Source: Argopecten irradians (Eukaryota; Mollusca; Bivalvia; Pectinida; Pectinidae). From it: a stretch of DNA of 64,000 nt. Under the pieces are notes generated by a model that was not told the origin of the DNA, did not search any database, and saw nothing but the letters and a program-made list of their open reading frames with translations. The position numbers and the translations under genes are program-made. Position 1 is the stretch's first letter. Every line of letters begins with the position of its first letter. Shown here piece after piece: positions 1 to 55,149 of the stretch. Location of the stretch: the NCBI RefSeq assembly GCF_041381155.1, contig NC_091147.1, positions 35,482,909 through 35,546,908 on the forward strand, in the 5' to 3' direction.

Positions 1-29
1 ACTACTGTGTGTCATAGCTTCCGTTCAAG
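1..29 (+). CDS. Gene A exon 2, partial: end of signal peptide
   Basis: Encodes LLCVIASVQ followed by a split Gly codon, identical to the end of gene B exon 2 (12227-12280). The donor GTAAGA begins at 30. The exon start and the first exon lie before the window. Confidence 0.8.
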
Positions 30-3000
30 GTAAGAACTATGCTAAAAAAGAATAGTTGAACAAAGCAATTAAGTTATTAGACAATAGGTATTAAAGATAC
101 CATTCATTGTGAAAACAGCGACGTGATATGTATGCATTTATCATATTCGTTTGGTATTTTTGTAAAATTGACCAATAAGATAAATTTTAGAAAAGAAATA
201 AAAGGAAAACCAGAAAAGCGAAAACATAATCTTTCAGTTATCCAATGGAAATGATATCATATATCAATATTTTAATTACTAAATGTTCTTACTCAAAATG
301 TATTTTAAACAATTTCTTGAAAAGGTGCGCCCGACAATCGCGGTACGGAATTTATCATAGGATACATGGAGAACATCGCTGTTTCTATGAACGTCGAACT
401 TTTCGTCACAACGATGAGGACGACGACAGTCAATGTTAAGGTGACCGCTCCGAGGTACAGCGCAGCTGGAATCAATGAAGCCTTCTCCGTCACGGCTGGA
501 ACTGTCAAACAGCTCTTCTTTACCCCATCTATACGTCTTGCTGGGAACGAAATGAGCTCTAAAGCTGTCTGGATCACTGCTGATGATGAGGTGGTTATAT
601 ATGGCGTTAACAAGGAGACTTACTCCTGTGACGCCTTCCTTGGACTACCCACTGACGTCCTTGGTACGGAATATTACGCCATCACATATTACCCACCGTA
701 CTACCAATGTGAGCTGCTGATTGTTGGCGTGAACGACAGTACAACCGTGAATATCAGAGTTGGGGATGCTATTGGCAGTCGGTACATATCATGGGGAGGA
801 AGGAACTACTATAGCGGAAATACACTGACCGTCACGATGAACAGATTTGACACATTCCAGTTAGTTACATACGGCGATCTGTCTGGAACCTACATTGAAT
901 CATCAAAGCCTGTCTCTGTATTCAGCGGAAATCGGAAGACAAATATCGGTTTAGGAGGCAGTTCTGATCACTTGGTTGAACATCTAACGAACGTTGACAC
1001 TTGGGGAAAGCGCTTCGTTACTGTTCCTATACCAAGGAGAACTGTCGGTGATTACTTCAAGTTCATAGCCAGTGAGAGTAGCACAACTGTAACTATCAGC
1101 GGAGGATATTCCAATACATTTACACTTGCAAGTCCAGGAACCGTTGTTCAGAAGTCAATTTCATCCAGTGCTTATTGTCTTGTACAGGCAGACAAGCCGA
1201 TATTGCTTGTTCAATTCTGTCTAAGTCAGCAGTCATCGAATGAACAATCTGATCCCATGATGATGATCATTCCTCCTGTGGAACAGTTCGGAGCCGACTA
1301 CACTTTCACCACACCAAAGTACTCTCTTGGGTCTTATAGCAACTACTTCATGTTCATCGTCAAGGAATCAGAAAAATCAGGACTTCGCGTCGATGGCAAT
1401 GCATTCCCCTCTAATACTGTATACAATACTATCAGTGGTACCGATTATGTAGGGGGTTACATCAGCGTGTCTGAGGGGTCCCACACTGTACGTCACACAT
1501 CTCCTATCTCCATCTTTGGTGGATATCTGTACGGGCAGGCCAACTTCGAGACCTACGGGTTTACCACAGGCATGCGTATGGCCGGCATTAACACGGTAAT
1601 CATTGCTGAATATCTACATTTTTCTATATTGTATCGGATAATTATAAGACTGCATTTAAAAATGCATCTCTTTTATACGATTTCAAGTATATTCAAAACA
1701 ACACTTAAAGTAATGAAAGAAGCATAATACGTCAAGTGTAATAGTATTTCTTTTATTCATAGTATAAATTTGTGTAATATATTTACGACTGAATATCGGT
1801 GTACTTTAAAACTGTTTTGTAGCCAATTCACCAATGATATTTCTTAATTGATTGGTCTAATCTTTTTTTTAAAAGAGCCTAAATGTGTCTTCAAGGGTTA
1901 GTGATTCAAGCATTATCATAACAATCGTCCTACGAAACATAGAATTCACTTGTTTGAGTTTCTTATTTGAGTCTATTGCTGAGTACATGTATATGTAAAA
2001 TAAGATGTATATGTCTTAAGTTGGCAATTTGTTTAAACTGACACTTAAGCTAGCTGCACATAAATGATGGAGTGAAAGATATAAAATTACTATTGTGGAG
2101 ATTAAAGGACAAAATACGGAGATCATTTTTTCTCGGATAATTCAGCCAATAAATGTTTGATATTTTCCAAATATTAGACTCCCATTTTGTGGTCTCAGAA
2201 TCACACATCAGTCGCCGTATGTTCTGCTATTGAAATATGACAAACTCTGAAATTCGAGAACTATAGAACGCTAAGTACGGCATTTAACAGAAAATGTTAA
2301 AAATATCTTGTATTTGCTTCAACAGATTTGCGTACCGACTGCCACTGTGGTTGGTGATGGTATAGACAATGACTGTGATGGGCTGATTGATGAGGAACTG
2401 TGTACTACAGAAAACCAAGGACGAGGTGAGTGCTATTCATTTGACCAGTGGATCACAAAAATGATGATGTCATTGAAATGTGATGACCGCTCTCATCCTA
2501 ACAACCATCAATTTAATAATCGTTCTTATTTCCATTTTCGAGACTCTTGTAACAACAAACAAAAATAATTTTTGTTGTTGTTGTAGACATAAAGATCGTG
2601 ATTTGTATATAGGGATTGAATGTATTTTTCTAATTTTCTTTGCGGCTATGAAAAGCAGAAACTATCTACATATTCCGTGGAGCACGTTAGCGTTAGCGCT
2701 CCTCGGAAGATATGTAGATAGCTTCTGCTATTCATAGCCGCTATGAAAATTAGAAAAATACATTCAATCCAAATATTAATATAACAATTATTCGTTAAAA
2801 CAAAAATTATTGAAATATTATTATATCATATTTAAAATCATGACACCCATTTACGACAAGAAACGAGATTAATCGAACCGCTGGCTGACAAAGTCGTTCC
2901 TCAACGTCGCGTTTTCAAGTTTCCGCCTTCCGGTCGTACTATTTTTGTAAATGACAATTGATAAACAAGAAATATAGTCAAAATAAGTTTCGATTGGCTT

Positions 3001-6000
3001 ATTACAGTAACCTTTAGTTGATTATATATCAAGAAACAACACATTAGACATTACACATTAAAATATTGTGGGGTATTATTTTTATTGATATGAATCTGGC
3101 GTATTGTTTGAAATCAGATGATCGGTGCACGACAATCGTCGTATTCATAGTGTTATCATAGGCAAATATTTGTTTTCGTCAGTTGGTTGATTCATATAGT
3201 GACGAAACACTCAGAATGTAAATATACATCGTTTAAGCTAGATAAATATGTGTTTATACTAATAAATATACACATTAGTATCCGGTTTAAATAACTACTC
3301 GACGGATATAAATAAGAACAGGTTTAAATCTTTAAAATGGGAATGTAAAACGAAATTGATATATTCATAGTCACAAAAGTTATTCACTTACCGTTGATAC
3401 TCAGCACTTACTACCCCATTCTTAATAATTTATTTAAATAGATAAAATGTTAATTTTCATTTCGTCTTATGTTTCTCGCCGTTGTCCTAATTACGGCGAG
3501 TCGGTTGATTATCACTGCGCCAGATGGCAAAACAGCCAAATGAATCTTCACTGTTAACATATTGTACGCAGGAATCTTCCATTTGGTTGGTGTTAAACAT
3601 CCCCTTAGGCCATTGGTATACATTTTCGTATATTATTAATCCTTTTAAGAAACTTTTAATTTTTGTTTCGCAAAGGTAGCGGGCCTTCAATTAGTTAATC
3701 ATATCTGATAATAATCGTAATACTATTGAAATGGATGTTATTTGTAACGATTGCTAGCATAGTCTACACTTACTTATTATACTTATTTGTAAATTAATCA
3801 AGTCATCAAAAATTTTACTAATGGCTGGATAATAAACCAAAATGCTGAAATTTGTAATTTGTACTTCTTGTAGATGACGATGGTGACGGAACTGCAGAAG
3901 AGGACTGTGCAACACCTCCTCCAAGTATGCAAAGCCACATTTTAAAGGCCTTTTTTCGCTATGCGTCTTAACTCATTTACCGTATATATTAAGGGAACAT
4001 GAATTTAAATTGAACAAAGATATACTAGAGATGAAACAAAAGAAGTAAAGTTATATCAACATAAGTCGTAATACGTCATGTTACGGTGAAATAAAGCAAC
4101 ATGTTCAATTATTTCAACTCTTGCTGGATATTGTGAAATTAATATTTGGTTTGAAATTTACAATAGCTCGCACTATAAGCTAACCTTTCAAGGAAAATGA
4201 TAAATGCAGAAAAAAATATTTTAGCTAGAACGAACAATGTTAGTAATAGTATTGGACATATAAGAACATGGACATTTTATGATTAAATTATTTTTTTTTC
4301 AATTATTAATTTTTTTATCACTTCATATTTATCCAACTACATGTATTGTCCTTTAATCAATTTAGTTGATGGCGGTTGGAGTTCATATGGAGCATACGGC
4401 GCATGCTCACTAACATGTCGATCAACAACAGGGGGCGCTACTACTGGAATAAAGACTCAGACCAGATATTGTAACAATCCTGAACCTAAATATGACGGAA
4501 GACAGTGTTCCGGAAGTGCGACAAACACTGCTTCCTGTACTCCATCAACCTATTGTCCAGGTAGGTATTTATCATAACTTAATGGCGATGTTTACACTCA
4601 ACTTTTATTTTTCAACTCTATGGTTCCCATAAACAAATGCATTACGTTCATACTTCTAAAACTAAAAAAATAACTTTCATTGAATTTAAAACGTTTGAAA
4701 CAATCGCTTACCGCATTATAAATAAAATAATCTATATTGAGTGAGAGCGATATCAAAACTATATTGAGATATGTTTATTTTGAAATAGATATATTTTTCG
4801 CATACCTTGTTAATGTTTATAATGTATTTCGATATTTTTATCTCAATTTACAGAAGATACCTATATTTTTTTACATTGTTATCTGTTGTTCATTTATTAA
4901 TTCAAAATATATTTCAATTGCCTCGATATTTTTGTGATATACAAATGTATCGCTTCAATAATGAGATCATATAATTGCCATACTGCATTTTGGGCCAAAT
5001 ATTGATGGTGTACTCTCTCAAGTGTTATTTTAAATGTTATTTTCTATTTCTAGTTCATGGTGGATGGGGTTCCTGGGGCTCCTATGGGTCTTGTTCCGTG
5101 ACCTGTGCCTCTGGCACGAGGACGAGGACTCGGTCCTGCAATAACCCTAGCCCACTATACAACGGTAACGACTGTAGTGGAAGTGACACGTCCACAACCA
5201 GCTGTACATTGAGTCCTTGTCCAAGTACGTATAATGGTGTTTACTGATACTGTTTGATATCAAATATTCGTGGGAACTTTTTCTCGTGGTTAACAGCTTT
5301 TGAATCATATCGTGGCTAGAAATATTCGTGGTTTACAGATGGAACAGCACAAGTAACAAAACATGGATTAATCACATTTCGTTGTTTTTTATTCGTGGTT
5401 CTATAGCAACAAGAAAAATCAACGAAATGTTTTACATAACGAAAATATATACTTGTAAAAAGAAGAAAGATATATAATTTATTTATTTTCTTTTGAAATA
5501 GTAATTTGAAAAGAAAACTCATAAACATGGTTTCAAGCACATTTTCGTTGAATTTTCATTCGTCGCAAACTGTATTTTATTTTTCGTATTTTCTCTGAGC
5601 AGTGTAAGTCATGGACATTTAGTACAAGTAACTTAACGGTAATTTCTTTCAATTAATTATATTTTTTTCTAAATAACGTTATATAGAATCATTATTAATT
5701 CCTATTAAAAAAGGGATATGTTCAAAATTATCAAATGTATTTTCATCATGATATTATAATTATTTTCTAGAATAAAACGTATTCAATGCAACAACTCAAT
5801 TATCATGATTGAAAAAGCTGATTGCCAATGTTTGATAATTCGTTTCTAGTTGACGGCGCATGGTCGAACTGGAACGCGTGGAGCACGTGCACAGTCACGT
5901 GCGGAGGCGGAACTACCACCAGGAGTCGCTCTTGTACTAATCCTAGTCCAGCACATGGCGGTGCCCAGTGTGCAGGCAATGACACAGCTACCATAGAATG

Positions 6001-8187
6001 TAATACTGCCGTGTGTATAAGTAAGTTATTGTTTTTTACGGGATTAATGTTACACAATTGTATGATGCATGTATCACAGAGGAAAACCTTTCCAGGTGAT
6101 CAGTATTTGTGCACTTCAATTTCTAACAGTAATTAGTTGAATATATTTGCACATCGTTAATGTGAACTAATGTACAAACTAATGTTTGTCAAAGTTAATA
6201 CAAACATTTTTTTTTTATTTTGCAAAAAAAAAAAAAAAAAAAAAAAAAGGTGATAGCGATAACGATGTGCATGTGTTGTATGGTTTTGTACATTTTGTAT
6301 ATAGCTATTCAGTAACAATGTGTAATCACTTATTTTACATTAACAGTTGATGGGGAGTGGGCTGCATGGAATGCATGGGGTACATGTACGTTATCTTGTG
6401 GAAATGGAACTCGATCCAGAATCCGAAGCTGTTCTGATCCTCTCCCTCTTAATGGCGGACTCCAATGCCCCGGAGCGTCTAGTGATTTCAGCGAATGTAA
6501 CACACAAGACTGCCCCGTCCGTCAGGCCGGGGTTTACCATCAGGTAAACTAGCAATATGTAAATTTTGAAATATTTTATAATTTTTTTATACAAATAATT
6601 CTCAGCAAATACATGACTAAAACAAATTGATTATTTAAAAATGATCAAATTTTGTTTTCAAATCTTCGCACGAAAGCGTAGTATTAATAGTAATAAACCA
6701 ATTATTTTTATTAAAACAAACTACAGTTAAGTCTGTCTATACAACCAACCCAACAGGCAAAGAAAAGTGGTTTTCATAGCCAAGTGGTCTTTGTACACAT
6801 GCTTACTCAAAAAAAATGTCGTTAAAACATGTTTTAAACGAAATGATTACTTGTCTTTCCGTTCAAGAATAAAACTTTTTGAATAGTTTTATATAGAAAT
6901 TACATGTAAATACATAAAACATACATTTACAACATGTATTTAAGGTCCACGCGTCGAATGCATGGGTTCGTAACGTGCAGTCGATCGCGATCGAGCAACT
7001 TGACCGCTAATTATATATAAATTGCCGTTGTTTGAAGAATTGGTCTCGCTCTTCACCACGTTTCAACGGACCCATGTGTGTTCGCCGACACGTATTTGGC
7101 GAGTCTTCAGTGCATTCGCCATGCATGATGTTGCAGTTTGTTAGGGAAATTCCACTTTTTATGTGCCTACGCATGCGTACTAGATTGTTTTGGCTCTGGG
7201 ACGGAACTACTGATTTCCCCATTTCCGAAGAGGGGTTTTCTATCGTTTTTGAAAAGACATGGAAATGTTGGGCATTTTTTTATTGGCGAATATTTTCATA
7301 AAGATATATGCTCTACTATTCAGCAAAGTTTGGTACTTTATGACGAGATTTTTTTTCACCCCAAAAAATAATGGGGCTTTAACATAAAACTTAGGAAACA
7401 ATAAAATCATAGACGATTATATGTTATAAAACTTTATTTGTTTTCGGACTTATAGAGAATATTCCTTCTTTTCAGCTCTGTCCCACAAATTGGTTTACCT
7501 GTGAGAGTGGCCAGATTACCTGTATACAATTCCCGTTCGTGTGCGATTGTGGAAACGATTGTGACGACGGAAGTGACGAAACAACGGGATACGCTGGATG
7601 TAGCGCTGATCTTCTGGCTTCCTGTGGAAACGGTGCCGAGAGTAAGTAATCGCTGGTGACATATAGCGACATCCAATAATGTATATTTCGTCTTTGCATA
7701 GTACAGCGTTACCTCCCTTGCGGGAAGGTATCGATTGTGACGTCATCGTTTTATGGGAAACATTTACGTCGTTTTCGCTGAAAAGTATGATGTTACGCTC
7801 GCAAACACATAACGTCACAATCGGTACCTACCCATAAGGGTAGATAACTCTGTAATATGCAAATCCGGAATAAAAATAAAAATATGAGGTATTAAGATGA
7901 TAAATAATAATCATTGGATAATTATAGCTAAAAGCCTTTTAATTTATACAAATTGTGGGAGTAGCTTTTCACTTTGAATAAATTCATAATAGGTATTTAG
8001 TATGTATACTGAATAAAAATACTGTTTGAATAAATTCATAATAGGTATTTAGTATGTATACTGAATAAAAATCCTTCTCTATCATTTATACGATTTTTTG
8101 TTTTTCATTTTTACAACAGGTATCCTCCGAATGTCATATGGGTTGGTTTTATTGGGAATATCATTGTTTTGGCTTCTACGACGATGA
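1..8187 (+). CDS. Gene A: IgGFc-binding-like / TSP1 / LDLa modular surface protein (5' end outside window)
   Basis: Spliced gene with exons 1-29 (partial), 325-1595, 2326-2425, 3874-3924, 4366-4560, 5054-5224, 5850-6020, 6347-6543, 7476-7641 and 8120-8187. Every junction has GT-AG borders and the frame stays open through all exons to TGA at 8185-8187. Seen: signal-peptide tail, IgGFc-binding-like domain, Asp-rich DNDCDG and DDDGDG motifs, four TSP1 repeats, one LDLa module and a hydrophobic tail ending in Arg-Arg. If the missing start equals that of gene B, the protein would be 815 residues. The family knowledge is that the first domain is named after human FCGBP, and TSP1 and LDLa modules mediate extracellular binding. 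A cell-surface or secreted adhesion, mucus or immune-recognition role is inference; no ligand can be read from sequence. Gene B downstream is its paralogue with five more TSP1 exons. Confidence 0.85.
325..1595 (+). CDS. Gene A exon 3: IgGFc-binding-protein-like N-terminal domain
   Basis: A single 1271-bp exon encodes about 424 residues. It starts [17 protein letters not shown] and contains typical family segments such as [38 protein letters not shown] and [10 protein letters not shown]. The open frame continues past 1595 into the intron to a stop near 1727, but the donor GTAATC at 1596 and the matching boundary in gene B (13847) show the exon ends at 1595. The acceptor is at 324 (TTGAAAAG), with a weak pyrimidine tract. 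The true start is upstream, not the ATG at 366, because the frame is open before it and joins the signal-peptide exon in phase. Confidence 0.88.
2326..3924 (+). CDS. Gene A exons 4-5: Asp-rich metal-binding motif
   Basis: Exon 4 (2326-2425) encodes ICVPTATVVGDGIDNDCDGL then [13 protein letters not shown]. Exon 5 (3874-3924) encodes [17 protein letters not shown]. The DNDCDG-x-IDEE pattern resembles the short putative metal-binding repeats found in MopE-type proteins and in many extracellular proteins; calcium binding is inference. Both exons are in phase 1 at their 3' ends. The 1.4-kb intron between them holds a foldback (2614-2769) and an M1 element. Confidence 0.8.
2614..2769. repeat. 156-bp foldback in gene A intron 4
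   Basis: The arms start GATTGAATGTATTTTTC and end GAAAAATACATTCAATC. They continue inward through TAGCAGAAGC / ATAGCTTCTGC-type complementarity around a short GC-rich centre. It is a near-perfect hairpin with no coding content, typical of a miniature inverted-repeat element. Confidence 0.85.
3340..3690. repeat. M1-family inverted-repeat element, diverged
   Basis: Shares the internal segment ATCACTGCGCCAGA and a TTTCGCAAAGGTAG-type end with the copies at 23040, 40874 and 48254. The left end is degenerate. It lies in gene A intron 4. Confidence 0.6.
4366..6543 (+). CDS. Gene A exons 6-9: four thrombospondin type 1 repeats
   Basis: Exons 4366-4560, 5054-5224, 5850-6020 and 6347-6543 each encode one TSP1 repeat. 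They carry WxxWxxW-type tryptophans (for example EWAAWNAWGTC), CSxTC motifs matching the TSP1 O-fucosylation pattern, and six spaced cysteines. All start after the first base of a codon. The first three also end so and could be duplicated or skipped without a frame change. The last ends in phase 0 after the tail [12 protein letters not shown]. The first repeat has a longer loop (TGGATTGIK). Repeats 1, 2, 3 and 4 best match gene B repeats 1, 2, 8 and 9. Confidence 0.9.
6224..6248 (+). repeat. Poly(A) run of 25
   Basis: Homopolymer in the intron before the last TSP1 exon of gene A. Its length may be affected by sequencing or assembly. Confidence 0.9.
6950..7290. other. GC-richer intronic island, unidentified
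   Basis: This part of the 0.9-kb intron before the LDLa exon is clearly richer in CG dinucleotides than its AT-rich surroundings. It contains the palindrome CGATCGCGATCG. No splice-compatible reading frame or known repeat was recognised. Confidence 0.35.
7476..7641 (+). CDS. Gene A exon 10: LDL-receptor class A module
   Basis: Encodes [16 protein letters not shown], then a [13 protein letters not shown] calcium-cage motif, then a Cys pair ending SCGNGAE. The acidic DCDDGSDE motif is diagnostic of LDLa domains. There are eight cysteines rather than six, because of the CDC and the trailing Cys. The phase-0 start and phase-1 end fit both neighbours. Confidence 0.88.
7692..7863. repeat. M2-family MITE (TGACGTCA-bearing), intronic copy
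   Basis: Begins TTTGCATAGTACAG and ends CTGTAATATGCAAA. The long inverted arms pass through CCCTTGCGGG-like and TATCGATTGTGACGTCA segments. About 172 bp, in the last intron of gene A. Related copies are at 36006, 38391, 39309, 49810, 58263 and 59943. Confidence 0.85.
7973..8072. repeat. Two tandem copies of a 52-bp unit
   Basis: The unit beginning TTTGAATAAATTCATAATAG occurs at 7973 and again at 8025 with almost no change. It lies just upstream of the last exon of gene A. Confidence 0.85.
8120..8187 (+). CDS. Gene A last exon: hydrophobic C-terminal tail
   Basis: Joined in phase after NGAE it reads SILRMSYGLVLLGISLFWLL then RR and stop. This is a single short hydrophobic segment ending at the stop, so either a transmembrane anchor with a two-residue cytoplasmic end or a GPI-attachment signal. 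The two basic residues at the very end favour a membrane anchor slightly. Confidence 0.75.
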
Positions 8188-11100: not shown

Positions 11101-11304
11101 TCGATTAAAAATTTCAAAAGTATAATCAATCATGCACTTTTAAATTGTACATCAGTTAAAGAATTAATGAACTGGTTATTGGACTACCCTTTGTATACGA
11201 TAAACTAATGCTTATAAACCTGAAGTACAGGTGAACTTATTTATTTCGGAGGAGTTCCTGGCGTCGTCCACTGCTTCGACCACAGGGCTCTATAGATTCA
11301 CACT
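8188..11304. other. 3' UTR of gene A, intergenic DNA and promoter side of gene B
   Basis: No coding exon recognised. Contains the gene A 3' untranslated region, a T-rich tract near 9145-9210, short repeated blocks of GTCCGCACATC near 10150-10195, and diverged AT-rich repeats. The bases before 11305 would be the gene B 5' untranslated region; I could not place a core promoter. Confidence 0.5.
8557..8562 (+). other. Probable polyadenylation signal of gene A
   Basis: AATAAA about 370 bases after the stop codon. It is the first canonical hexamer downstream and sits in a T-rich context. Confidence 0.5.
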
Positions 11305-12280
11305 ATGGGTATGTTGTATTTCATGATATTATTATTTGTATTACATGTTTTGTTACTGCGTTTAGTGTAAAAGTTCTTATATACTTGAAAACCGATAACG
11401 AGTTAAGATATATGAATGTTAGAACTTGATGGGATTTAAATTTTTAAAATTTCAACTTAAGATATTCTAACTCCAACAAAATGAGTAATAAGGTATTAAT
11501 TGACAAATGTAGTTTTTCACTATCAAAAACAGGAGCAGACAATTTAGTATTTTTCTTCAGTTACAAAAGTTACTTACTTTACACCATTACCACCATTGAA
11601 AAGTTTGAGCTTCTAATTTTACTTCAAGTTAAAATATGAAAAATAATTATTTGCATCCCGAAAAAATTCCATGGCACTATATCCTATATAGAATGATGTA
11701 CTGAATGCGCGTGCACCAAAGAAAAAATAACTTATTTATATTATTTTTTGTGTGTTAATTAGACATGCATAGACACGATCAAACACCAATTATCAATTAT
11801 GATGAATATCATTTATGATCTGTTGGCGGTGGAGCATCTTATCTTGTCATACTAAATCCTATAAGAAAGAAATGTATATTTCTTTCATTATTGATATCAT
11901 CTGTAATTTGAACACGAATCTTGTCAGTTTTTATTATACCTTCATATCTTCAGTGTTGTAAACCAACTTTCGTGTGCGATTAGCTTTCGTGAATTTAATG
12001 ATCGAAGTTAATTTGCGAAAGTTTATCTCCTAGTTTGAACATCTTTATAATTTATATCGATAGGAATTTTTATTCAAATTTTAAACCTTCGAACGATATT
12101 CTTCGCTAAATCACAAAATTTAGTAGCTGCGAAAGAAAGTTCAAACCCAACTAACAATAGATCAGAATGCCGCAGTAATATGTTTTATGACACGCGAGTG
12201 GTAATAATATTTTCGTTTTTATCCAGCGGCCGTAGCTCTTCGGCTGGTGTCACTACTGTGTGTCATAGCTTCCGTTCAAG
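11305..12280 (+). CDS. Gene B exons 1-2: start codon and signal peptide
   Basis: Exon 1 contributes only ATG plus one base (11305-11308) before donor GTATGT. Exon 2 (12227-12280) follows acceptor TTTTTATCCAG and encodes [19 protein letters not shown] four-base first coding exon would be missed by most gene finders. The intron carries an M3 element at about 11500-11840. Confidence 0.78.
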
Positions 12281-15200
12281 GTAAGAACTATGCTAAAAAA
12301 GAATAGTTGAACAAAGCAATTAAGTCATTAGACAATAGGTATTAAAGATATCATTCATTATGAAAACAGCGACGTGATATGTATGCATTTATCATATCCG
12401 TTTGGTATTTTTGTAAAATTGACCAGTAAGATGAATTTTAGAAAAGAAATAAAAGGAAAACCAGAAAAGCGAAAACATAATCTTTCAGTTATCCATTGGA
12501 AAATGATATCATATAACAATATTTTAATTACTAAATGTTCTTACTCGAAATGTATTTTAAACAATTTCTTGAAAAGGTGCGCCCGACAATCGCGGTACGG
12601 AATTTATCATAGGATACATGGAGAACATCGCTGTTTCTATGAACGTCGAACTTTTCGTCACAACGATGAGGACGACGACAGTCAATGTTAAGGTGACCGC
12701 TCCGAGATACAGCGCAGCTGGAATCAATGAAGCCTTCTCCGTCACGGCTGGAACTGTCAAACAGCTCTTCTTTACCCCATCTATACGTCTTGCTGGGAAC
12801 GAAATGAGCTCAAAAGCTGTCTGGATCACTGCTGATGATGAGGTGGTTATATATGGCGTTAACAAGGAGACTTACTCCTGTGACGCCTTCCTTGGTCTGC
12901 CCACTGACGTCCTTGGTACGGAATATTACGCCATTACATATTACCCACCGTACTACCAATGTGAGCTGCTGATTGTTGGCGTGAACGACAGTACAACCGT
13001 GAATATCAGAGTTGGGGAAGCGATTGGCAGTCGGTACATATCATGGGGAGGAAGGAACTACTATAGCGGAAATACACTGACCGTAACGATGAACAGATTT
13101 GACACATTCCAGTTAGTTACATACGGCGATCTGTCTGGAACCTACATTGAATCATCAAAGCCTGTCTCTGTATTCAGTGGAAATCGGAAGACAAATATCG
13201 GTTCAGGAGGCAGTTCTGATCACTTGGTTGAACATCTAACGAACGTTGACACTTGGGGAAAGCGCTTCGTTACTGTCCCTATACCATTGAGAACTGTCGG
13301 TGATTACTTTAAGTTCATAGCCAGTGAGAGTAACACAAGGGTCACAATAAGTGGTGGTTATTCTACTTCTTTTACGCTGAGTAGTCCGGGAACTGTTGTC
13401 CAGAAGACGATTTCCTCCACCGCTTACTGTCTTGTGGAATCAGACAAGCCGATATTACTAGTTCAATTCTGTCTAAGTCAGCAGTCATCGTATGAACAAT
13501 CTGACCCTATGATGATGATCATTCCTCCAGTGGAACAGTTCGGAGCCGACTACACTTTCACCACACCGAAGTACTCTCTTGGGTCTTACAACAGCTACTT
13601 TATGTTCATTGTCAAAGAATCAGAAAAATCAGGACTTCGCGTCGATGGCAATGCATTCCCCTCAAGTACAAGATACAACAGGATCAGTGGTACCGATTAT
13701 GTAGGGGGTTACATCAGCGTGTCTGAGGGGTCCCACACTGTACGTCACACATCTCCAATCTCAATCTTTGGTGGATATCTATACGGACAGGCTAATTGGG
13801 AGACTTACGGGTTTACCACAGGCATGCGTATGGCCGGAATCAATACGGTAAGTTTCGTATAATTTCAAAACACACGCATAATGTATCAAACAAAATAAAT
13901 GTTTTTTTATTTGGCAAACATGATCATTGACAATCCAATGTAAGGTGATTCCGTGACTTTGTCAGAAACATTTTTGCCGAGATTTGTAATTTTAACCTTA
14001 GTTGCATCACAGAAAAAGTTGGGTAAGAGTATATAGATCATCCGACTAGACACTCGTTTAACAAAATGTATACATATAAGTAAGAGTTATAGAAAAAACT
14101 AATACTAATATTTTCACATGAGTAGTAACAATGAAGTGTATATAAATTAATCTACTTTCAGCAATTAAATTGATTATATTATTCTATAGTAATTAATATA
14201 ATTATTACTGTCGTACTTCCCTAAACCGATCATGATAGGTGCATAGAATTTTGGCCGGTTTAGAGAGGATTCGGTTTCTAGAAGTGAAACCAAGAACGAC
14301 AATTACCATCCAGATATAATTTGTCCGGAACTCGTTTTCTATATTATATTACACAACATGTACATGTCGATTATTTATATGAATGTTGTCACAAAAGAGT
14401 GAATTAAGTGTAAAAACTGAATAAAATCAACAATCCTGACATTGTCACTGTTTATAAATTTTATATGTTATGTGAAGTTTTAATCACTAATAATATAGAG
14501 CAAATCCTTCCGTACATCACATTATCGTTCGAGTTCAAGATATTCTCCTGTTTTGAGGAGGATCGTTATGGGAAAACGCACTGAAATGATAAATAATATT
14601 AATCTATTTTCTGTAATTAAATTAATAAATTATTCTATACCAATTAATATAATTATAACTATTATAATAAATCTATTTTTTTATTTTACTATAATAACAA
14701 AAATATTTATTAAAATAATTATCAATATAAATATTGTAATGATAATCAATGTAATTATTACTATAATAATCGATATAATATTTACTATAATAATCAATAA
14801 AATTATAAATTTAATAATTAATATAATTATTATTTTCTTAATTGATATAACAATTACTATAATGATTGATATATTTAATATTATAATAATAAATAAATGT
14901 ATTACTATCATAATTAATATATTTATAATTATAATCATTAATATATTTATTTAAAATATAATAATTACTAAAATGATTGATATATTTCATATTATAATTG
15001 TAAATAAATGTATTACTATCATAATTGATATATGTAATACTATCATAATTAATATATTTATAATTATAACCATTATAATATGTATTTAAAATATTATAAT
15101 TACTATAATGATTGATATATTTCATATTATTATAGTAAATAAATGTATTACTATCATAATTGATATATGTAATACTATCCTAATCAATATATTTATTATT

Positions 15201-18200
15201 AAAATCATTAATATATTTATAATAATATACTATCATCCCTACACAGATTTGCATCCCGACCCCCACAGTGGTTGGTGATGGTGTAGACAACGATTGTGAC
15301 GGCCTGATTGATGAGGAACTGTGTACCACAGAAAACCAAGGACGGGGTCAGTGTTATTCCTGTAACTTGCTGTAAACGTGGTAATTTCCGCGAGCTGGAA
15401 ATTTACGCTGATTACTCGGAAACCTGTTAACCGCAGTTATTTCATCCGCGCGTCATATTTAGTGTATGCATGAAACTATATGATGGCAGACGCTCGAAGG
15501 CTTGTGTATAGCGTTAATATGTGCAACAACATCACGAAAATAACCACTCGCGAATATATATATATATATCTACAGTAATATATAATGAGTTTCAATTATT
15601 GAAACATTGACGATGCATTATGATAGCATAAAAGGCATTACCCAATCTGTTTCGATTTCCCTTTAGATGATGATGGAGATGGTCAGGCAGAAGAGGATTG
15701 TGCAACTCCTCCCCCGAGTAAGTATAAATTGTCTGACGATGTTTGCAATTGCTAAATATCATCAAGAGTTTGAACTGGGTCAACATATGTAAGACATTCT
15801 CTATCAACGTTAATAGTCGAACACTGATACTTTTATCAAAGTCAACCCTGCTTTAGCGACCACCTCTGTATACAGAATATTCGCTTAATACGAACACTTC
15901 CTTAGGGTCCCCGAAATGTTAAAATTCAACCAACTTTGTCCTGTGTATATAGAGAATACACGGTTAGTATCTTACAATACAAGGTTTATTTTGGTGCGAG
16001 ACTTAGGAAAGCCGAGATGACGAGGCTTTGCCGAGTCATCTCGGCTTTCCGTGTCGAGCACCAAAATAATCCTTGTATTGTAAGATACTAACCGTGTATT
16101 CTGTTTATCCTGCAACCATTATGGCTTTCAAAACGAAAGCAAATTGACAGTTCCTTACTTTGTTTCGCTCGAAGCGAGACGCTTCTTTGATGCGGAGGTA
16201 AAGATTCATTCACTTAACCGAATGAGAGTGTACTCCTTTTTACAGCCGTGGGAAATAAATAAGCGCATTCACAAACAGTAACCGTAATTCTATTCAGGGT
16301 GATATATCACTGAAAGGAAAGGAAAATACTCAAATAACAACCAATACCCATTAAAGAATTACTTAACAATACATACCTTTGTCATGAGCCAAGAAAAAGA
16401 CGACACCGCCTTACGAAATTTTCGATATCGTAAAAATGACGTCATTTCGATGAATGTGACGTCACGTTTTAGCGGGACTGAATGACGTTTCATTCACCGG
16501 AAGTTTCAAGTTCTGGGTCAAGTTAGAAAAAGTTCCGTCAGATATGGAACAAATTCACGTGATCGTATTGACGGATAAAGCATATCGTATTGACGGATAA
16601 TGCACAAGTTTATCCGGCAGTAGTTATCGGTCAGTATGTGGGACAGTTGCAGGATAAAAAGTCATTATAGCTATAGAGAACATTTTTTCTTGGTCACTTG
16701 GGTGATATTTATAGACAGGTTAATGCCTTAAATTGATTTTAAATACAGTTGATGGAGGATGGAGTTCATATGGTGCGTACGGCGCATGCTCGCTTTCGTG
16801 TCGATCAACAACAGGGGGCGCTACTACTGGAATAAAGACTCAGACCAGATATTGTAACAATCCTGAACCTAAATATGATGGAAAACAGTGTTCCGGAAGT
16901 GCGACCATCACTGCTTCCTGTACTCCATCAACCTATTGTCCAGGTACGAAATATCACAAACAAATGTTGAATGCATTCATAAAGAAATTCATATATTGAA
17001 ATCCAATTTTATGTTCATATTTTCCTTTGTATCAAAAATTCAGTAAGAGATATCAGTTTGATTATAATACATCATGTCATATAGTATATGAATATTTGTT
17101 TGTATTTCTAGAAATTATATTTTTCATTTAATTAAAGGAATGTACAATTTGTGCTGAACCATAGCTATATTAAAAATTATACATATTGTGAAATTTAAGA
17201 ATGATGAAGTGTTTGTTTTATCATTGATAGTGAGTTCCCGTCGTGTAGATAGAGCTTTTTAATGCTGATTTAGGACATGCATATTTTCAGTTTCATAAAA
17301 AATATATTTCTAATTCTAAACAGTTAATGGTGGCTGGGGTAGTTGGGGATCATACGGCTCCTGTTCCGTTACTTGTGGCAGTGGTACGAGGTCGAAAACG
17401 AGGCAATGTAACAATCCTACTCCTGCGCATGGCGGAAGTTCCTGTAGCGGTTCCGGTACACAAACTACCAGTTGCACATTGAGCGCTTGCCCGAGTACGT
17501 AAAGAAAAGAAAAGTATAACTTATGCATGCCTAATGTGCTTGTGGAACATCATGGTTTTTATAGTGGTTTTATTCTATTTACCTCCTGTTGAATGCGTTC
17601 GTGTAGAGAAATTCAAGAATTCTTGATTTCTTATTTTTTTTCAGTTGATGGTGGCTGGAGTTCATACGGAAGTTGGGGATCATGTTCGAGGAGCTGTGGG
17701 ACTGGGTCACGTACTCAAACAAGGCAATGTAACAATCCATCACCAGCACACGGTGGTGCAAATTGTGCCGGATCTTCCTCGAACTCAGAATCCTGCAACA
17801 CCCATCCTTGTCCAAGTAAGCAAATCCATGATAAAATATGTACCAAGGTTTACACACATATTCAAAGCATCCGATATATAGCAAATTATAATACCATCTT
17901 AGATGTCGAAAACAATCAAAATTTTAAAAAGATTAAGAAATCGTGAACTTTATATAACTAAAAAGAAATCATTTCAAACAATCGTCCTGAAGAGGGGGAA
18001 TATATATATATAATTTGAGAAGAAGTATTTAAAAATGATTTTATAGGTTTGTCAGTTAATTGTAATTAAAAATCGTTTCGGAGTAAGCGGCATTATTAAG
18101 TGTGAGTAAGTGATTGAATCACTGTGTAGAGAACATTAAACGAATGAACAGAAAAACAAAAAGTAAAAACATCATATCATCTTTCAGTTGACGGCGGTTG

Positions 18201-21200
18201 GTCCTCTTGGGGAAGCTATGGTTCCTGTTCCGTAACATGCGCAGGAGGTGTGAAGTCTCGGACGCGTTCGTGTACGAATCCAGCTCCACAACACGGAGGA
18301 GCGTCATGTGGCAACGACGATACCAGTAGTGGTAGCTGTAACACACATCCTTGTCCAAGTATGTATTCTTTAAAACAAAAGTAAATGTATCGTAATCACA
18401 CTTGTATAATGAATCGTCAAAGTGTATGGTAAATAATTTATGCTTCTACTGACCAGAAATCGTTTGAGGCTTACGTTGTGTATTGATAAACAAAGAGTAA
18501 GTGTTATTGCAGTTATAATGTAACGTATTTCTAAGCAATACTCATGAAAATGTTTTGTCTCGTAGTCGATGGAGAGTGGTCTTCCTGGGGTAGTTATGGT
18601 TCCTGTTCCGTGACATGCGCAGGAGGAGTAAAATACCGGACGCGTTCGTGTACGAACCCAGCTCCACAATATGGAGGTGCAGCATGCCCTAGTTCTGATA
18701 CCAGCAGCACAACATGCAATACATTCCCATGTCCGAGTGAGTTCATACATCTCTCTCCATGTGTTCATTTGTAGATTCATGTCATGTCTAATGAAATGGA
18801 TTTTAGCTTTAATGAAATATATGAGAATTGCTTCAAGTAACATGCATTTTATACTTTTAATGTTGTGTATGTTTTTGTTGACACATTCTATATTACCAAT
18901 AATAAAATATACTTTGTTAAGAGAAAAAATAGTTTTAATCTCTTTCATTAATGGATTCGTAAAAATACTATTTCATATTGAGGAGTTAGTGACAAAAATC
19001 AAACTTATACATTTTTTATATATTATATTTCATCTATATCCGTAGTTAATGGAGTTTGGGGTTCGTGGGGGAGTTATTCCTCTTGTACACTGACCTGTAA
19101 GGACTACGGAACATCTCAGACCGGAACTAAGACACGGACCCGGTCCTGTGATAATCCCCCTCCGCAATACAATGGGGCGAACTGTCCTAACTCGGACACT
19201 GATGTCGCAACCTGTACAACTTCCACTTACTGTCCAAGTAAGTCCATTGTGTACTTTTACAAATCTGAGTAGCATAAATCTAAATCATTGGCTTCCGTCA
19301 TCAAATGTTGTAGTCTCGACAAATCATGCCTCATTTCTGTCCTTAAAGCGACAGATCATTAGGTTTTGTTTATACATTTATAAACCATTCTTGTGTTCAG
19401 ATTAATGTTACCTATTTCAAACTGGTTTTGTTATTTTTCCTGTTATATTCTTACATTAATTAAAGCGATTTTGTTATCAAATCTATTAATGGAGTCTCTA
19501 GTTCTTTAAAAGCGTCATTTATGTGGGCATGTTAATAATTATGCTGCAAAGAGGATGATTTTGAACATTTTTTTTATTATTTTTGGTCTATCAAGTTTAA
19601 AAGATTATTTTCTTAATCCAAAATAAAATTTGGAAGCTAGTCAGACATCGACAACCATCCAAATGCATACACTTCGTAGTTTAAAATAATTCCCAGTCTT
19701 AAATCCAATCTGACTTAAATTTTGTTTTAAATGCATCTTAATATTTAGACATCATCAATAACACGTATGCCACTTCATTGTTTTTAGTTAATGGTGTATG
19801 GGCAGCATGGAGTGGTTGGAACACCTGCTCTGTGACTTGTGCCAGTGGAATCCAACACAGGTCGAGGACATGCACAAACCCACCTGCCCAATATGGCGGC
19901 CAGCCTTGCGCTGGGAGTACCGCTGATAGCCAAGTGTGCACTCTATCACCATGTCCAAGTATGTAATGGTTGTATTAGTCAATACCGTTGCTATATTGAA
20001 AACAAGTACGTAAGTCTTTTGTTAATATTTTAAAGATGCTCCACCGCTGACAAATGACATTTTTTTCACTATCAAAAACAGAAGCATACGGTTTGGTATT
20101 TTTCTTCAGTTACTAAAGTTACTTATTTTACACCATTACAACCATTTAAACCTGTGAGCTTTCAATTTTACTTCAAGATAAAAATATTAAATATAATTAA
20201 TTACATCTCAAAAATTCCATTGCGTAATGAATGCAGTACTGATTGCGTATGCATCGAAAGCACAATAAATTATATTGAATTATTTTTGTGTTAATGTGAC
20301 ATATATATACACGATCAAACACCAATTATTGTTCAAATTATAGGTATCATTTATGCTCTGTCGGCGGGGGAGCGTCTTTAAATGGTAATATATTAAAAGC
20401 GAACTCGGCATAACCCTGTTTAGACGGCACTGAATTGGGCATATATCTTTTCATATCTTTACCTTTTTGCTTAATTTGCTTATAGAGTGACAATGTCTAT
20501 GCAATATTTCCGACATAAGTAGTATTCTACTGAAACAAATTAGTTGAAATACTATCAATGGCTGACGTTAATGGCTGATGTTTGTCTCTCTGAATAAATT
20601 TTAAAGTTGACGGCGCCTGGACAAGTTGGAGTGCGTGGAGTGCGTGTACGGTTACCTGCGGGGGAGGAACTTCTACTAAGCAACGCACGTGCACAAATCC
20701 CGCTCCACAATATGGCGGCGCCTCGTGCTCCGGTAATGACACAGATACCAAAGGATGTAACCCGGATGTTTGTAAGAGTAAGTTGGTGTTTTCTTAATTT
20801 CTGAAAGATTTCACAAAAAATTTACAAACTATAATATTTACGTCCGCTTCTGATATTGTTAGACCTGGGTATAAAGACCACTTAGCTAATAGGATAATTT
20901 GTCTTGATCCATGGGGTGAATTTCATTGATAGTTTTGACTGATCATTAGTCCAACGTGAACATTATCAGTAACTACGAATTGATAAAGACGATATGTGAA
21001 TCAGTAGCATAATAGGGTTATCCTTGCCAAAGTAAAAACGATGATGAGGTCATAAGTTCTTTCAAGAGAAATGGTCCATTTAGACTCCGTAAAAACAAGC
21101 TACAATATCAAATATGAATCATAAGAATAATGGGAAGATCCCTGCTTAAACGAGGATGACGCCATAAAGTTCTTTTGCGAGAGTAATGGTCTCTTCTGAC

Positions 21201-22833
21201 AATGTGATAGCTGATATATAAAACTGATTTCTAAAGGTATTAGAATATCTTGTATTGAAATGCATCTTTACCTTTCCAGTCGATGGCGAATGGGCTGCGT
21301 GGAATCCTTGGGGCACGTGCACAGTGTCCTGTGGAAATGGAACCAGGTCCCGTATTAGGAGCTGTTCTGATCCCCTCCCTCTCAATGGCGGAAAACAATG
21401 TCCGGGAACGTCCAGTGATTTCAGCGAGTGTAACACACAAGACTGTCCAGTGCGGCAAGCTGGCGTATACCAACAGGTAAGATTGGACGTTTACAAATAA
21501 AAATTAAATGTGAGTAGCTTACACACTCATCACAATTCGTTGTACGTTCTGAACAGCATAGATGTTAACATTTTGCTTTATAAATTGACACAGCTTGCAT
21601 ATAAGCCCAACCAAAAGTGTGAAAAAGTGAAGCGTAATCGTTGGATATTTTAATGTTTAAGATATGATTTGACCACAACTTTCGTCAAAAATAATATATT
21701 AGAGTACCGAGACGTCCATTAAAGCGATCCCACATCCCGTTCGAACCATTCATTTCATACCTTGAAGATCAACCGCTCCTAAAGCTAGAATTGTTACCGT
21801 AAATCAATGCCAAAGACTAAACATAACATTGCAACGCGACAAAATTAAATAAACCTAGTTCGTATGTCTTGATACATTAGCAAAAAGAACCCTTGAATGG
21901 TTTTGTTTCACAATTTTATCTATTTCTTTAAAATCTTGGGTCAATGTTGTAAATACTTTATAACTAAAAAAGATACGAATATTTGAAAACTTGAAACTCA
22001 AATATCATTATACTTTATGACAAGGAGACACAAAATGAGTATACCGCAGCCTGCCAAAGCATAGTACATTCGTACACTGCAACACAATGCACACAATGGT
22101 CAGTCCTTAAAAGTAAATTTAATAAACTAAACGAAACCATTGTTTTATTTTAATGTTTACCATCTTACTTTGCCTGACATATATAATTTTATCTACAATG
22201 TAATTACCTGTTTATCGTTTAGTTATGCCCTGCAAATTGGTTTACCTGTGAAAGCGGCCAGATCACGTGTATAGACAGGTCCTATATGTGTGACTGTGCG
22301 AATGACTGTGACGACGGAAGTGACGAAACACAAGGCTACGCCGGATGTAACGCCGCCCTGCTACAGGCTTGTGGGAACGGTGCCGAAAGTAAGTACACGT
22401 CATGTGTTTGCGAGCGCAACGTCATAATTTTCAGAGAAATGGGAATTCAATTTTTAATTCTAATAAGGAGATGCATTCAAAACATTATTATGATATTTAG
22501 TGATGTTCGTATAGCTATTATCAATATAAATATACATATATATGTGATAATAATAAATATATGTTTATAGATTTAATAGATCCAAACAGTATGAATTTTA
22601 TGTTATAGTTCAGTTTTAAGAAAATGTGTACGTAGAAACTTTTATAATATGCAAGAAGATACAAATGGTCCAGAATATTAGTCAACAAAATGAGGAATTT
22701 ATTTTACACTCATTCGAAATTTTCAATTGTATATTTGTTATTGTTATTTCTTCTCTTCTCTTTAGGCATCCTGCGGATTTCCACATGGTTAAGTGTCCTG
22801 GTATTCTGCACTGCGTCTTTTCTATTGATATGA
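11305..22833 (+). CDS. Gene B: IgGFc-binding-like / 9xTSP1 / LDLa modular surface protein
   Basis: Complete model with exons 11305-11308, 12227-12280, 12577-13847, 15247-15346, 15667-15717, 16749-16943, 17324-17494, 17645-17815, 18188-18358, 18566-18736, 19046-19237, 19788-19958, 20607-20777, 21280-21476, 22223-22388 and 22766-22833. The total is 3324 bases, 1107 codons plus stop. The start was chosen because ATGG at 11305 sits directly before a consensus donor (GTATGT). It joins exon 2 to give a textbook signal peptide, [20 protein letters not shown]. Domains in order: IgGFc-binding-like (residues about 20-443), Asp-rich motif, nine TSP1 repeats, LDLa, hydrophobic tail. It is a tandem paralogue of gene A, same orientation, 3.1 kb apart. 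The function is unknown; an extracellular binding role on the cell surface is inferred from the modules. Confidence 0.87.
11500..11841. repeat. M3-family inverted-repeat element in gene B intron 1
   Basis: Internal segments CACTATCAAAAACAG, TTTTTCTTCAGTTAC and GATCAAACACCAATTAT match the copy at 20029-20382. The right end GGTGGAGCATCTT matches the M3 terminal repeat. The left end has decayed. Confidence 0.7.
12577..13847 (+). CDS. Gene B exon 3: IgGFc-binding-protein-like domain
   Basis: Same length (1271 bp) and boundaries as gene A exon 3, joined in phase to the signal peptide. The first 750 bases are almost identical to gene A. A block at 13330-13467 is clearly diverged, and similarity rises again afterwards. 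The donor is GTAAGT at 13848. Confidence 0.9.
14580..15235. repeat. Low-complexity A/T tract in gene B intron 3
   Basis: About 650 bases almost free of G and C, built from ATAATTATTATAAT-like words. There are longer internal repeats, for example TGATATATTTCATATTAT at about 14974 and 15111. Open frames here read only Ile, Asn, Tyr and Lys and are not genes. Confidence 0.9.
15247..15717 (+). CDS. Gene B exons 4-5: Asp-rich metal-binding motif
   Basis: Exon 4 (15247-15346) encodes [20 protein letters not shown] then [13 protein letters not shown]. Exon 5 (15667-15717) encodes [17 protein letters not shown]. Lengths match gene A exactly (100 and 51 bases). Acceptor and donor are canonical. Directly upstream lies a 650-bp A/T-only tract. 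Confidence 0.83.
15950..16102. repeat. Long near-perfect foldback in gene B intron 5
   Basis: Left arm AGAATACACGGTTAGTATC at about 15952 onward is mirrored by GATACTAACCGTGTATTCT ending at about 16102. The inner arms pair through GGAAAGCCGAGATGAC / GTCATCTCGGCTTTCC around a loop containing GCTTTG. It directly abuts the M4 element. Confidence 0.88.
16104..16658. mobile_element. M4 miniature element with 13-bp terminal inverted repeats
   Basis: Terminal repeats TTTATCCTGCAAC (16104-16116) and GTTGCAGGATAAA (16646-16658) bound a 555-bp non-coding block in the intron before TSP1 repeat 1. A matching end fragment lies at 35931-36000. It contains two TGACGTCA palindromes near 16438 and 16459. No transposase is visible, so it is non-autonomous. 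Confidence 0.7.
16749..21476 (+). CDS. Gene B exons 6-14: nine thrombospondin type 1 repeats
   Basis: Nine single-repeat exons with lengths 195, 171, 171, 171, 171, 192, 171, 171 and 197 bases. All start in phase 1; the first eight also end in phase 1. Each encodes a Trp-containing start ([39 protein letters not shown]), a CSxTC or CTxTC core and a closing CP. Repeats 1 and 6 carry longer loops. Repeats 4 and 5 (18188 and 18566) are very similar to each other, which points to recent exon duplication. Repeats 3 to 7 have no partner in gene A. The tryptophan spacing fits the C-mannosylation pattern known for TSP1 repeats. Confidence 0.9.
20029..20382. repeat. M3-family MITE in gene B intron 12
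   Basis: Starts TTTAAAGATGCTCCACCGC and ends GCGGGGGAGCGTCTTTAAA, an approximate terminal inverted repeat. It is 354 bp and AT-rich inside. Other copies: about 11500, 42551 and 51090. Confidence 0.85.
22223..22388 (+). CDS. Gene B exon 15: LDL-receptor class A module
   Basis: Encodes [20 protein letters not shown], then [14 protein letters not shown], then GYAGC and ACGNGAE. It has the LDLa acidic calcium motif and the same extra cysteines as gene A. It starts in phase 0 after the special last TSP1 exon and ends in phase 1 (donor GTAAGT). Confidence 0.88.
22400..22442. repeat. Fragment of an M2-family element
   Basis: CATGTGTTTGCGAGCGCAACGTC-like sequence matches one arm of the M2 family. 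Only about 40 bases remain, a few bases after the LDLa exon donor. Confidence 0.5.
22766..22833 (+). CDS. Gene B last exon: hydrophobic C-terminal tail
   Basis: Reads [20 protein letters not shown] then LI and stop. It is the same length as the gene A tail, but after SILR the sequences differ and there is no terminal Arg pair. It looks more like a GPI-attachment signal than the gene A tail does. This is a judgement by eye only. Confidence 0.72.
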
Positions 22834-25430: not shown

Positions 25431-26246
25431 CAGGAAAATACTGCCTTTGGATTTATCGAAGTTTACAGTTTTGAATTTCGACCGCAACAGTTTGTTGTAT
25501 TTTATCGATCAGTTAAAACATCTTCAATGGGGTATTTTTGACACTCTGCAAATTGAAAATTAAAAGGCCAGCAGTTGCTTAGACAACTAAATAATGAACC
25601 CGGTTATCTTCCTATATAGGTATAACAATATACACAGTAATTTATGCATTTAAATGCATGTTCCTTTGAAACCGACGTATTCGATTTATAGCTAGAGCTA
25701 AAAATAAAATCTTCATTTGATTCGCCCACCAATACAACTTCAGTTTTCTGTATATACACCAAACATTTAAGATGCTTATAATCGCAATATCTCCAGCAAT
25801 CTATTTCCCCAAGACTGGCGGAAAATTATCTCCGAAATGTTGCGATTGGCATTCTTATTTATTCAGCGTAATAAGGGTGACAACTCGTATACATGTACTT
25901 ATTTTTTTTGCATTATCTGATGTAATTCATGTCAAATTTTATATGATCCTTATCCAAACAATACAAACTGGCTATTAAGATATATACATTTTAATGAATC
26001 AAAGACCACCAAGACTACAAAATATCGTGTTGTGTAAACAAACTTAAAGATAAAACACAAATGCGTAATACATGACGATTGGTGTCACAATTAAACGTCC
26101 TCGATAATCCAGGGGTTCCGATCACTTATGATCTCTAAACCCCTGGACTATTTCAGTATTGTCAGTATAATGAGACCGAATGGGGTCATCCTCGATACTA
26201 CAGGGGTTACTATCACTGACGCACTATGAACCCCTGGGCTATTCTA

Positions 26247-26471
26247 TTGGTTTGGATTGGTTTGTTTAGTTTACGTCCTATTAACAGCCAGGGTCATGTA
26301 AGGACGTGCCAGGTTTGTTGGTGGAGGAAAGTCGGACTACCCGGAGAAAAACCACCGGCCAGCGGTCAGTACCTGGCAACTGCCCCACATTGGATTCGAA
26401 CCCGCATCCCAGAGGTGGAGGACTTGTGGCAATATGTCGGGACATCTTAACCACTCGGCCACCGCGGCCCC
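26247..26471 (-). mobile_element. tRNA-derived SINE, copy 1
   Basis: The minus strand starts GGGGCCGCGGTGGCCGAGTG. The A box is TGGCCGAGTGG, and the B box GGTTCGAATCC comes 65 bases on. A conserved body follows (GGTTTTTCTCCGGGTAGTCC), ending in a T/A-rich AAACC run. The flanks carry similar CTGGGCTAT and TTGGGCTAT words, consistent with a target-site duplication. It resembles tRNA-derived SINEs widespread in bivalves; I do not assign a family name. Confidence 0.85.
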
Positions 26472-27340: not shown

Positions 27341-27565
27341 TTGGTTTGGTTTGGTTTGTTTAGTTTACGTCCTATTAACAGCCAGGGTCATGTAAGGACG
27401 TGCCAGGTTTGTTGGTGGAGGAAAGTCGGACTACCCGGAGAAAAACCACCGGCCAGCGGTCAGTACCTGGCAACTGCCCCACATTGGATTCGAACCCGCA
27501 TCCCAGAGGTGGAGGACTTGTGGCAATATGTCGGGACATCTTAACCACTCGGCCACCGCGGCCCC
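27341..27565 (-). mobile_element. tRNA-derived SINE, copy 2 (same insertion, duplicated)
   Basis: Practically identical to the copy at 26247-26471 and at the same place within the tandem unit, so it arose by the segmental duplication and not by a new insertion. Confidence 0.85.

Positions 27566-48002: not shown

Positions 48003-55149
<7,147 letters not shown>

Follow-up and report, generated by a model that had tools for sequence, protein, structure and literature searches.

A seven-gene cluster of IgGFc-head, TSP1 and LDLa proteins in the bay scallop combines a homogenised head exon with older stalks of variable length

The window analysed here, a stretch of 64,000 nucleotides from Argopecten irradians (bay scallop; C14:35482909-35546908 of the 846-Mb assembly), contains two neighbouring genes, A and B, whose proteins share the order signal peptide, IgGFc_binding head, acidic DNDCDG/DDDGDG linker, TSP1 array, one LDLa module and hydrophobic C-terminus. 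Both lie in a cluster of seven IgGFc exons, five of which encode homogenised heads on stalks that are older and largely colinear. The account that we consider somewhat probable is a tethered adhesion family, in which a shared head would sit on a variable, surface-anchored stalk and heads would be exchanged between genes. A and B would then be two of seven scallop genes for secreted proteins that are probably held at the cell surface by a glycosylphosphatidylinositol (GPI) anchor. In these proteins the head would be joined, through an acidic and possibly calcium-binding linker, to a TSP1 rod, one LDLa and a hydrophobic end. The head exon may have passed between neighbouring genes through unequal crossing over and gene conversion, leaving five of the seven heads nearly alike. 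Positions below are window positions unless prefixed C14, C11 or C3.

Both genes were modelled from the sequence with every exon edge checked; in the final models all introns are GT-AG, all frames join and there are no internal stops, and all exons lie on the plus strand. Gene A runs off the left end of the window, with its ATG before base 1, and 805 of its amino acids are encoded inside the window. It begins with the end of a signal-peptide exon (1..29, exiting in phase 1, its 5' part upstream of the window), followed by a single head exon of 1271 bp (325..1595), linker exons L1 (2326..2425) and L2 (3874..3924, containing DDDGDGTAEEDC), four TSP1 exons of 195, 171, 171 and 197 bp (4366..4560, 5054..5224, 5850..6020 and 6347..6543), an LDLa exon (7476..7641) and a last coding exon with the hydrophobic C-terminus and the stop (8120..8187). 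Gene B is complete, running from the ATG at 11305 to the stop at 22833 and encoding 1107 amino acids. Its first coding exon comprises ATGG (11305..11308), and the signal peptide, recognised by eye, is completed by the next exon (12227..12280). The head exon (12577..13847) is followed by linker exons L1 (15247..15346) and L2 (15667..15717); AT-rich imperfect repeats with periods of 48 to 135 bp occupy 14620-15227, in the intron preceding L1. The nine TSP1 exons measure 195, 171, 171, 171, 171, 192, 171, 171 and 197 bp (16749..16943, 17324..17494, 17645..17815, 18188..18358, 18566..18736, 19046..19237, 19788..19958, 20607..20777 and 21280..21476), and the LDLa exon (22223..22388) and the last coding exon, again with hydrophobic C-terminus and stop (22766..22833), complete the gene. 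All 13 TSP1 exons are entered in phase 1, and all except the last of each gene, which is phase 1-0, also exit in phase 1; these phases would permit the skipping of single exons. A predicted Argopecten irradians protein of 1074 amino acids named SCO-spondin-like, P0002, matches B at 100% identity over 97% of its length and has the head and TSP1 exons joined in a single product. It starts at an internal methionine; our model extends N-terminally with the signal peptide, and the added N-terminus is of the same kind as the start of P0009, the database protein of the neighbouring gene g5.

In the Pfam search, IgGFc_binding (PF17517) is matched far above its curated cut-off of 25.6 bits by both A (224.7 bits, E 2.1e-66) and B (223.5 bits, E 4.8e-66), which places both in that family. 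TSP_1 is matched with E 1.4e-31 in A and 1.4e-74 in B, where four and eight stretches pass alone, respectively; our own profile recovers four and nine. Ldl_recept_a is found once in each (29.3 bits in A, 32.2 bits in B; cut-off 24.1). The remaining match is a weak one to MopE (PF11617) in linker exon L1 of gene A, at 16 bits under the cut-off of 27, and no VWD, C8, TIL, CTCK, Ig, VWA or EGF family is found among the matches up to E 0.1. The earlier note, written from the letters of the DNA, had placed a head, a TSP1 array, an LDLa module and a hydrophobic tail in one gene, counted 4 versus 9 TSP1 exons in these same phases and set the pair apart from vertebrate FCGBP with its von Willebrand D domains. 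The gene models and the Pfam matches confirm this observation, and its interpretation is partly supported, as discussed below. IgGFc_binding also occurs in three proteins assigned to bacteria, P0079, P0106 and P0147 (Methylomicrobium, Micropruina and Chloroflexota), the second with a PKD domain.

The tandem pair described in the note is real as two neighbouring genes, but it belongs to a larger cluster. The B head exon has 41 matches in the genome at E up to 0.001, and seven close ones (89-100% identity) fall inside 100 kb, giving seven IgGFc exons at C14:35.398-35.497 Mb. The TSP1 counts are 6 in g1, 11 in g3, 4 in g4, 7 in g5, 4 in A0, 4 in A and 9 in B, so that the variability of repeat number foreseen in the note extends from 4 to 11 among the paralogues. 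Gene g4 (C14:35442583-35447454) looks degraded: its head exon is matched from codon 50 on, the first 49 codons being unmatched, a search for a linker exon gave none, and one TSP1 and the LDLa have each lost a cysteine. Outside the cluster, the layout recurs at C14:17.73 Mb and C11:30.12 Mb, each locus having a linker, four TSP1 and one LDLa (the C11 head matching in two pieces), and a locus at C3:2.70 Mb has a head, a linker and ten TSP1 matches, with no LDLa within the stretch examined. The cluster also contains an 8.4-kb direct duplicate of 99.1% identity (C14:35401939-35410318 and 35419714-35428097), which holds the 3' half of g1 and the 3' end of g3 and was excluded from the gene counts.

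The synonymous divergence (dS) between A and B differs sharply from exon to exon. The head and first TSP1 exons are the least diverged (0.21 and 0.22), followed by the linker (0.84), and the penultimate TSP1, last TSP1 and LDLa exons reach 1.64, 2.38 and 2.64, respectively, the last two values being close to saturation; the values for short exons are rough. The idea that the two copies differ mainly by five TSP1 exons does not survive this comparison. For g5 and B, dS is 0.11 in the head, 1.49 in the linker and 1.82 in the penultimate TSP1, and the first TSP1, last TSP1 and LDLa are saturated. Homogenised heads, with dS of 0.05-0.26, are found in five of the seven genes (A0, A, B, g5 and the matching part of g4). 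Within the head exon, A-B dS is 0.023 over bases 1-180, 0.066 over 181-720, 1.006 over 721-900 and 0.322 over 901-1269; differences number 13/720 before and 65/549 after base 720 (Fisher p 8e-14, with the split picked post hoc). Low head divergence might instead reflect constraint at the DNA or RNA level, through splicing or codon use, rather than exchange between genes, and the head protein is indeed strongly conserved. However, the head exons of both unlinked genes tested are saturated in dS against the five cluster genes used for comparison, so general synonymous constraint does not explain the low values. Divergence from g3 is also high, dS leaps from 0.07 to 1.0 inside a single exon, and the head and tail trees conflict (see below). 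We regard constraint as largely refuted and highly improbable.

The DNA around the head exon points to where the exchange may have taken place. From upstream through the head exon, A and B are 98% identical over 5.9 kb, and the identity ends 4 bp past the exon. By comparison, A and A0 are about 97-99% identical from ~60 bp upstream of the head exon to the 3' end. Only one of eight intron pairs of A and B aligns, that of the intron preceding the head (96.6%), and the other seven show no match. A B-like 5' side and an A0-like 3' side meet at the head exon, so that A looks like a recombinant joined there; the simplest account of these sequences is that A arose by unequal crossing over between head exons, its 5' end coming from a B-type gene and its 3' end from an A-type gene.

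Alternatively, A0/A and the partial 8.4-kb copy could be assembly duplications, the true cluster then having five or six genes. The identities, 97.5-99.3% between A0 and A over aligned stretches and 99.1% between the 8.4-kb copies, fall in the range of bivalve heterozygosity. By contrast, the DNA upstream of the A0 head exon has no match to that upstream of A, whereas A and B share theirs, a pattern that fits unequal crossing over and not an unmerged haplotype, and there are no runs of N in 167 kb. We consider assembly duplication rather unlikely.

Several observations weigh against exchange as a complete account of the cluster. Two of the seven heads are not homogenised, g1 standing at dS 0.56-0.72 from the five and g3 at 1.1-1.4 from all others. 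A permutation test of identical runs in the head exon is significant in 18 of 21 pairs, uncorrected, and these include distant pairs, so uneven rates along the exon probably contribute; the test is not significant for g5-B (812/2000), A0-A (207/2000) and g3-g4 (1038/2000). In addition, A0/A and the 8.4-kb duplicate could be partly effects of the one assembly used.

The phylogenies of heads and tails give conflicting groupings. In the head tree (28 rows), g5 joins B (97/94) within a five-head Argopecten group (94/95) that excludes g3, and in the tail tree (27 rows) g5 joins g3 and Mizuhopecten P0008 (98/98; 89/93 with scallop rows alone). Five approximately unbiased (AU) tests were run on the scallop rows, with groups picked after the trees had been viewed. 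For the head, they reject g5+g3+P0008 (p 1.5e-5), A+A0+Mizuhopecten A (p 0.008) and B+Mizuhopecten B+Pecten P0003 (p 1.3e-6); for the tail, they reject g5+B (p 2.9e-4) and g1+g5+A+A0+B (p 7.2e-6). The tails of the two Mizuhopecten genes pair together (97/88), which speaks against a simple A-with-A and B-with-B picture; the matching of A and B across species thus rests on repeat counts and single repeats. At this locus nature has homogenised one exon but neither the introns that follow nor most downstream exons, and the clarity of the pattern and the identifiable recombination join make the locus well suited to studying the evolution of modular surface proteins.

The stalks were compared through best-match maps of single TSP1 repeats. 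Repeats 1, 2, 3 and 4 of A pair with repeats 1, 2, 8 and 9 of B, at 95, 75, 66 and 92% amino-acid identity, respectively, and B repeats 3-7 thus form an interior block without counterpart in A, in which repeats 4 and 5 are 82% identical. The Mizuhopecten protein P0001 (1807 amino acids) contains two complete head-TSP1-LDLa units and is probably a fused model of neighbouring genes. Against its first half, A maps four to four (84, 89, 77 and 75%), and against its second half B maps nine to eight, in order, B repeats 4 and 5 sharing one P0001 repeat. The difference between four and many repeats is thus not a recent gain or loss, given the 4/8 arrangement in Mizuhopecten. The number corresponding to the nine of B is eight in Mizuhopecten and 11 in Pecten P0003. 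Repeat order is kept when A and B are mapped on each other, on Mizuhopecten and on Pecten; exceptions to colinearity occur elsewhere, namely g5 repeat 6 against B, the g3 interior against P0008 and A repeat 4 against oyster P0017. Neighbouring repeats can be close: g3 repeats 5-9 are 86-95% identical to the next repeat and g1 repeats 2-4 are 91-93%, and the duplicated pieces include introns (79% over 793 bp and 77% over 761 bp). Judged from these sequences, the ends of the TSP1 arrays are fixed, and the interior varies and would grow by tandem duplication of exon plus intron. All 13 repeats of A and B carry CxxS/TC, and WxxW is present in 3/4 repeats of A and 7/9 of B; these motifs are the consensus for O-fucosylation and C-mannosylation, respectively.

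Genes of this kind are already in the databases, under misleading names. Two protein database searches at E up to 0.001 returned 107 and 131 proteins (120 of the 131 listed), and a scan with profiles built from the cluster covered 164 proteins (162 from the database plus A and B), 68 of which have both head and TSP1. With these profiles, the order head, TSP1 array, LDLa is found in scallops, oysters, mussels, Tegillarca and Pinctada. The proteins outside scallops (P0010, P0013, P0029, P0046 and others) share this order and mostly the same hydrophobic end, and the models ending in LDLa differ in having 1 to 11 repeats; the oyster proteins P0004 and P0005 reach 16 and 17 TSP1, respectively, their LDLa being recorded solely in the Pfam list of the database. 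Forms with four repeats are found in Argopecten, Mizuhopecten, Mytilus, Saccostrea, Tegillarca and Pinctada, and from their presence in these six genera four may be the older repeat number. Literature searches on this architecture found no description or published name among the papers listed. Expression studies naming 'SCO-spondin' in oyster larvae (PMC7525975) and 'Hemicentin-1' in bay scallop larvae (PMC6476759) may concern this family.

The C-terminus was examined in 32 proteins whose order ends in LDLa and which have at least two TSP1, A and B being included and P0002 excluded. A hydrophobic C-terminal stretch is present in 27 of the 32, compared with 0.5% of 1280 control windows; it ends within 6 residues of the C-terminus in 23 of the 32 (2 residues remain in A, 0 in B). 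Together with the N-terminal signal peptide, this end, with little or nothing after it, fits the sequence pattern of GPI proteins in A and B and suggests a GPI signal. Counting against this are the five proteins without a hydrophobic tail (P0018, P0021, P0024, P0035 and P0142, among which P0021 and P0142 are named partial) and the four of 27 hydrophobic-tailed proteins with more than 6 residues past the hydrophobic stretch; the case for a putative GPI anchor is built on this hydrophobic C-terminus.

The head was modelled with AlphaFold2 from 46 aligned sequences (gene B, 12579-13847). The model is all-beta, with a mean predicted local distance difference test (pLDDT) of 93.8 and a predicted template modelling score (pTM) of 0.93, and was divided by eye into four modules. 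Residues 101-208 and 209-302 are related, with a profile probability of 94.5% (shuffles at most 3.4%); by sequence profile, module one is weakly related and module four not detectably so. The consensus of the 46 sequences extends beyond the head into the DNDCDG and DGDG motifs, and the acidic linker is thus widely part of the head region. Structure comparison does not point to a ligand: no chain in the PDB matched the head by sequence, and a whole-head fold search gave no convincing match, which does not make the fold new.

How the family may work is considered in the light of these data. In the tethered adhesion reading, every family member would offer one common head to a single partner, or contribute it to one shared surface layer, at a distance from the membrane that depends on its 4 to 11 repeats. 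As a tentative extension, a common binding head may be kept across long-diverged genes by ectopic recombination at the 1.27-kb exon, which would create new head/stalk pairings such as A, with repeat number setting reach. We infer here GPI anchoring, calcium binding, adhesion and stalk length as the relevant variable; a shared head with a variable stalk is not in itself proof that stalk length matters. Should stalk length be the quantity that varies, this natural series, in which one head is combined with 4 to 11 repeats, would offer a direct test of reach in adhesion.

A structural role is somewhat less probable, and we think it rather unlikely: the proteins would be parts of secreted mucus, byssus, larval cement or shell matrix, with the C-terminus cleaved or transient and repeat number tuning mechanics instead of reach. 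TSP1-bearing or IgGFc-named proteins are reported in settings of this kind. Among the proteins of an oyster larval settlement set are some named IgGFc-binding and a 'Hemicentin-1' that combines a single LDLa with three TSP1 (PMC6337334), a TSP1 protein has been suggested to underlie byssus extensibility in Pinctada (PMC4597212), limpet adhesive proteins are named with IgGFc-binding protein (PMC7333891), abalone shell-matrix proteins named IgGFc-binding carry chitin-binding domains (PMC6003135), and a frog glue protein is built of IgGFc domains, the vertebrate cluster of such genes being described as functionally unannotated (PMC11237159). However, none of these proteins is established as a family member, those of the limpet being listed with VWD domains (PMC7333891), and the hydrophobic C-terminus of most family proteins points to membrane anchoring.

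The earlier note had proposed a diversifying recognition or adhesion receptor; taken as an immune receptor, it would vary in copy number and TSP1 number to recognise many targets. A gene cluster varying in both respects, and tract exchange able to generate new mosaics, would suit such a role, and a Manila clam IgGFc-binding protein gene, its family membership not established, is reported with large negative values in two microbial challenges (PMC7430831). By contrast, exchange homogenises most of the heads: A and A0 are identical in head protein, and g5-B head dN, the nonsynonymous divergence, is 0.004. As pairwise averages, dN exceeds dS in no cluster gene pair and no A-B head segment (in some A0-A exons both are zero), and the repeats are conserved across scallop genera. 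The sequences give no support for a diversifying recognition head, and we consider an immune receptor of this type quite improbable. A common head on surface-anchored stalks of varied length would be easier to reconcile with adhesion or tethering than with the recognition of many targets.

The rest of the window contains several further features. A tandem array of a 172-bp unit (43912-47164; 19 copies, 96% matches) coincides with a GC skew of -0.75 in 44001-46000, the plus strand being C-rich; a ~1.07-kb unit is repeated in tandem at 25618-27779 with 99% identity, and about 700 bp of TGA trinucleotide repeat lie at 51826-52527. An exon-like frame at 49230-49667 matches Sulfotransfer_1 (E 6.8e-15). 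At ~29540-30000, an exon resembling a signal peptide precedes a cysteine-rich exon (VHGLEHCLQCSAVTDISTCQTVTCG); seen by eye, the two may begin a small Ly6-like gene.

In comparison with known systems, A and B share TSP1 repeats with hemicentin and SCO-spondin, yet the database names "hemicentin-1" and "SCO-spondin-like" are wrong for the bivalve head-TSP1-LDLa proteins. Hemicentin has VWA, an Ig array and G2F/EGF besides TSP1, none of which is among the matches of A and B up to E 0.1, and this identity is rejected. SCO-spondin has VWD, C8, TIL, LDLa repeats and CTCK besides TSP1 (PMC7333891); it shares LDLa with A and B, but these have a single LDLa and no match to VWD, C8, TIL or CTCK up to E 0.1, and SCO-spondin is likewise rejected. 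The vertebrate IgGFc-binding protein FCGBP, like A and B, carries IgGFc_binding in its N-terminal part (PMC11237159). In A and B, however, the head is followed by TSP1, LDLa and a hydrophobic C-terminus in place of VWD, C8 and TIL (none up to E 0.1), and an FCGBP identity is rejected; their order of parts in one gene is that of the bivalve head-TSP1-LDLa proteins. Scallop proteins P0025, P0026 and P0027 combine an IgGFc head with TSP1, VWD and kringle, two of them also with TIL, in layouts between the bivalve family and FCGBP. A further parallel is with the PRIT glue proteins and the vertebrate cluster of IgGFc-domain genes (PMC11237159). PRITs differ in repeating the IgGFc domain between disordered repeats, whereas A and B have one head with TSP1 repeats, and in being reported with many positively selected codons in glue species, whereas A and B show no dN above dS pairwise. 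What the two systems share is the clustering of genes with IgGFc domains, and the A/B layout can be likened to the history described for the PRIT lineage, in which the VWD part was lost and the remainder remodelled (PMC11237159).

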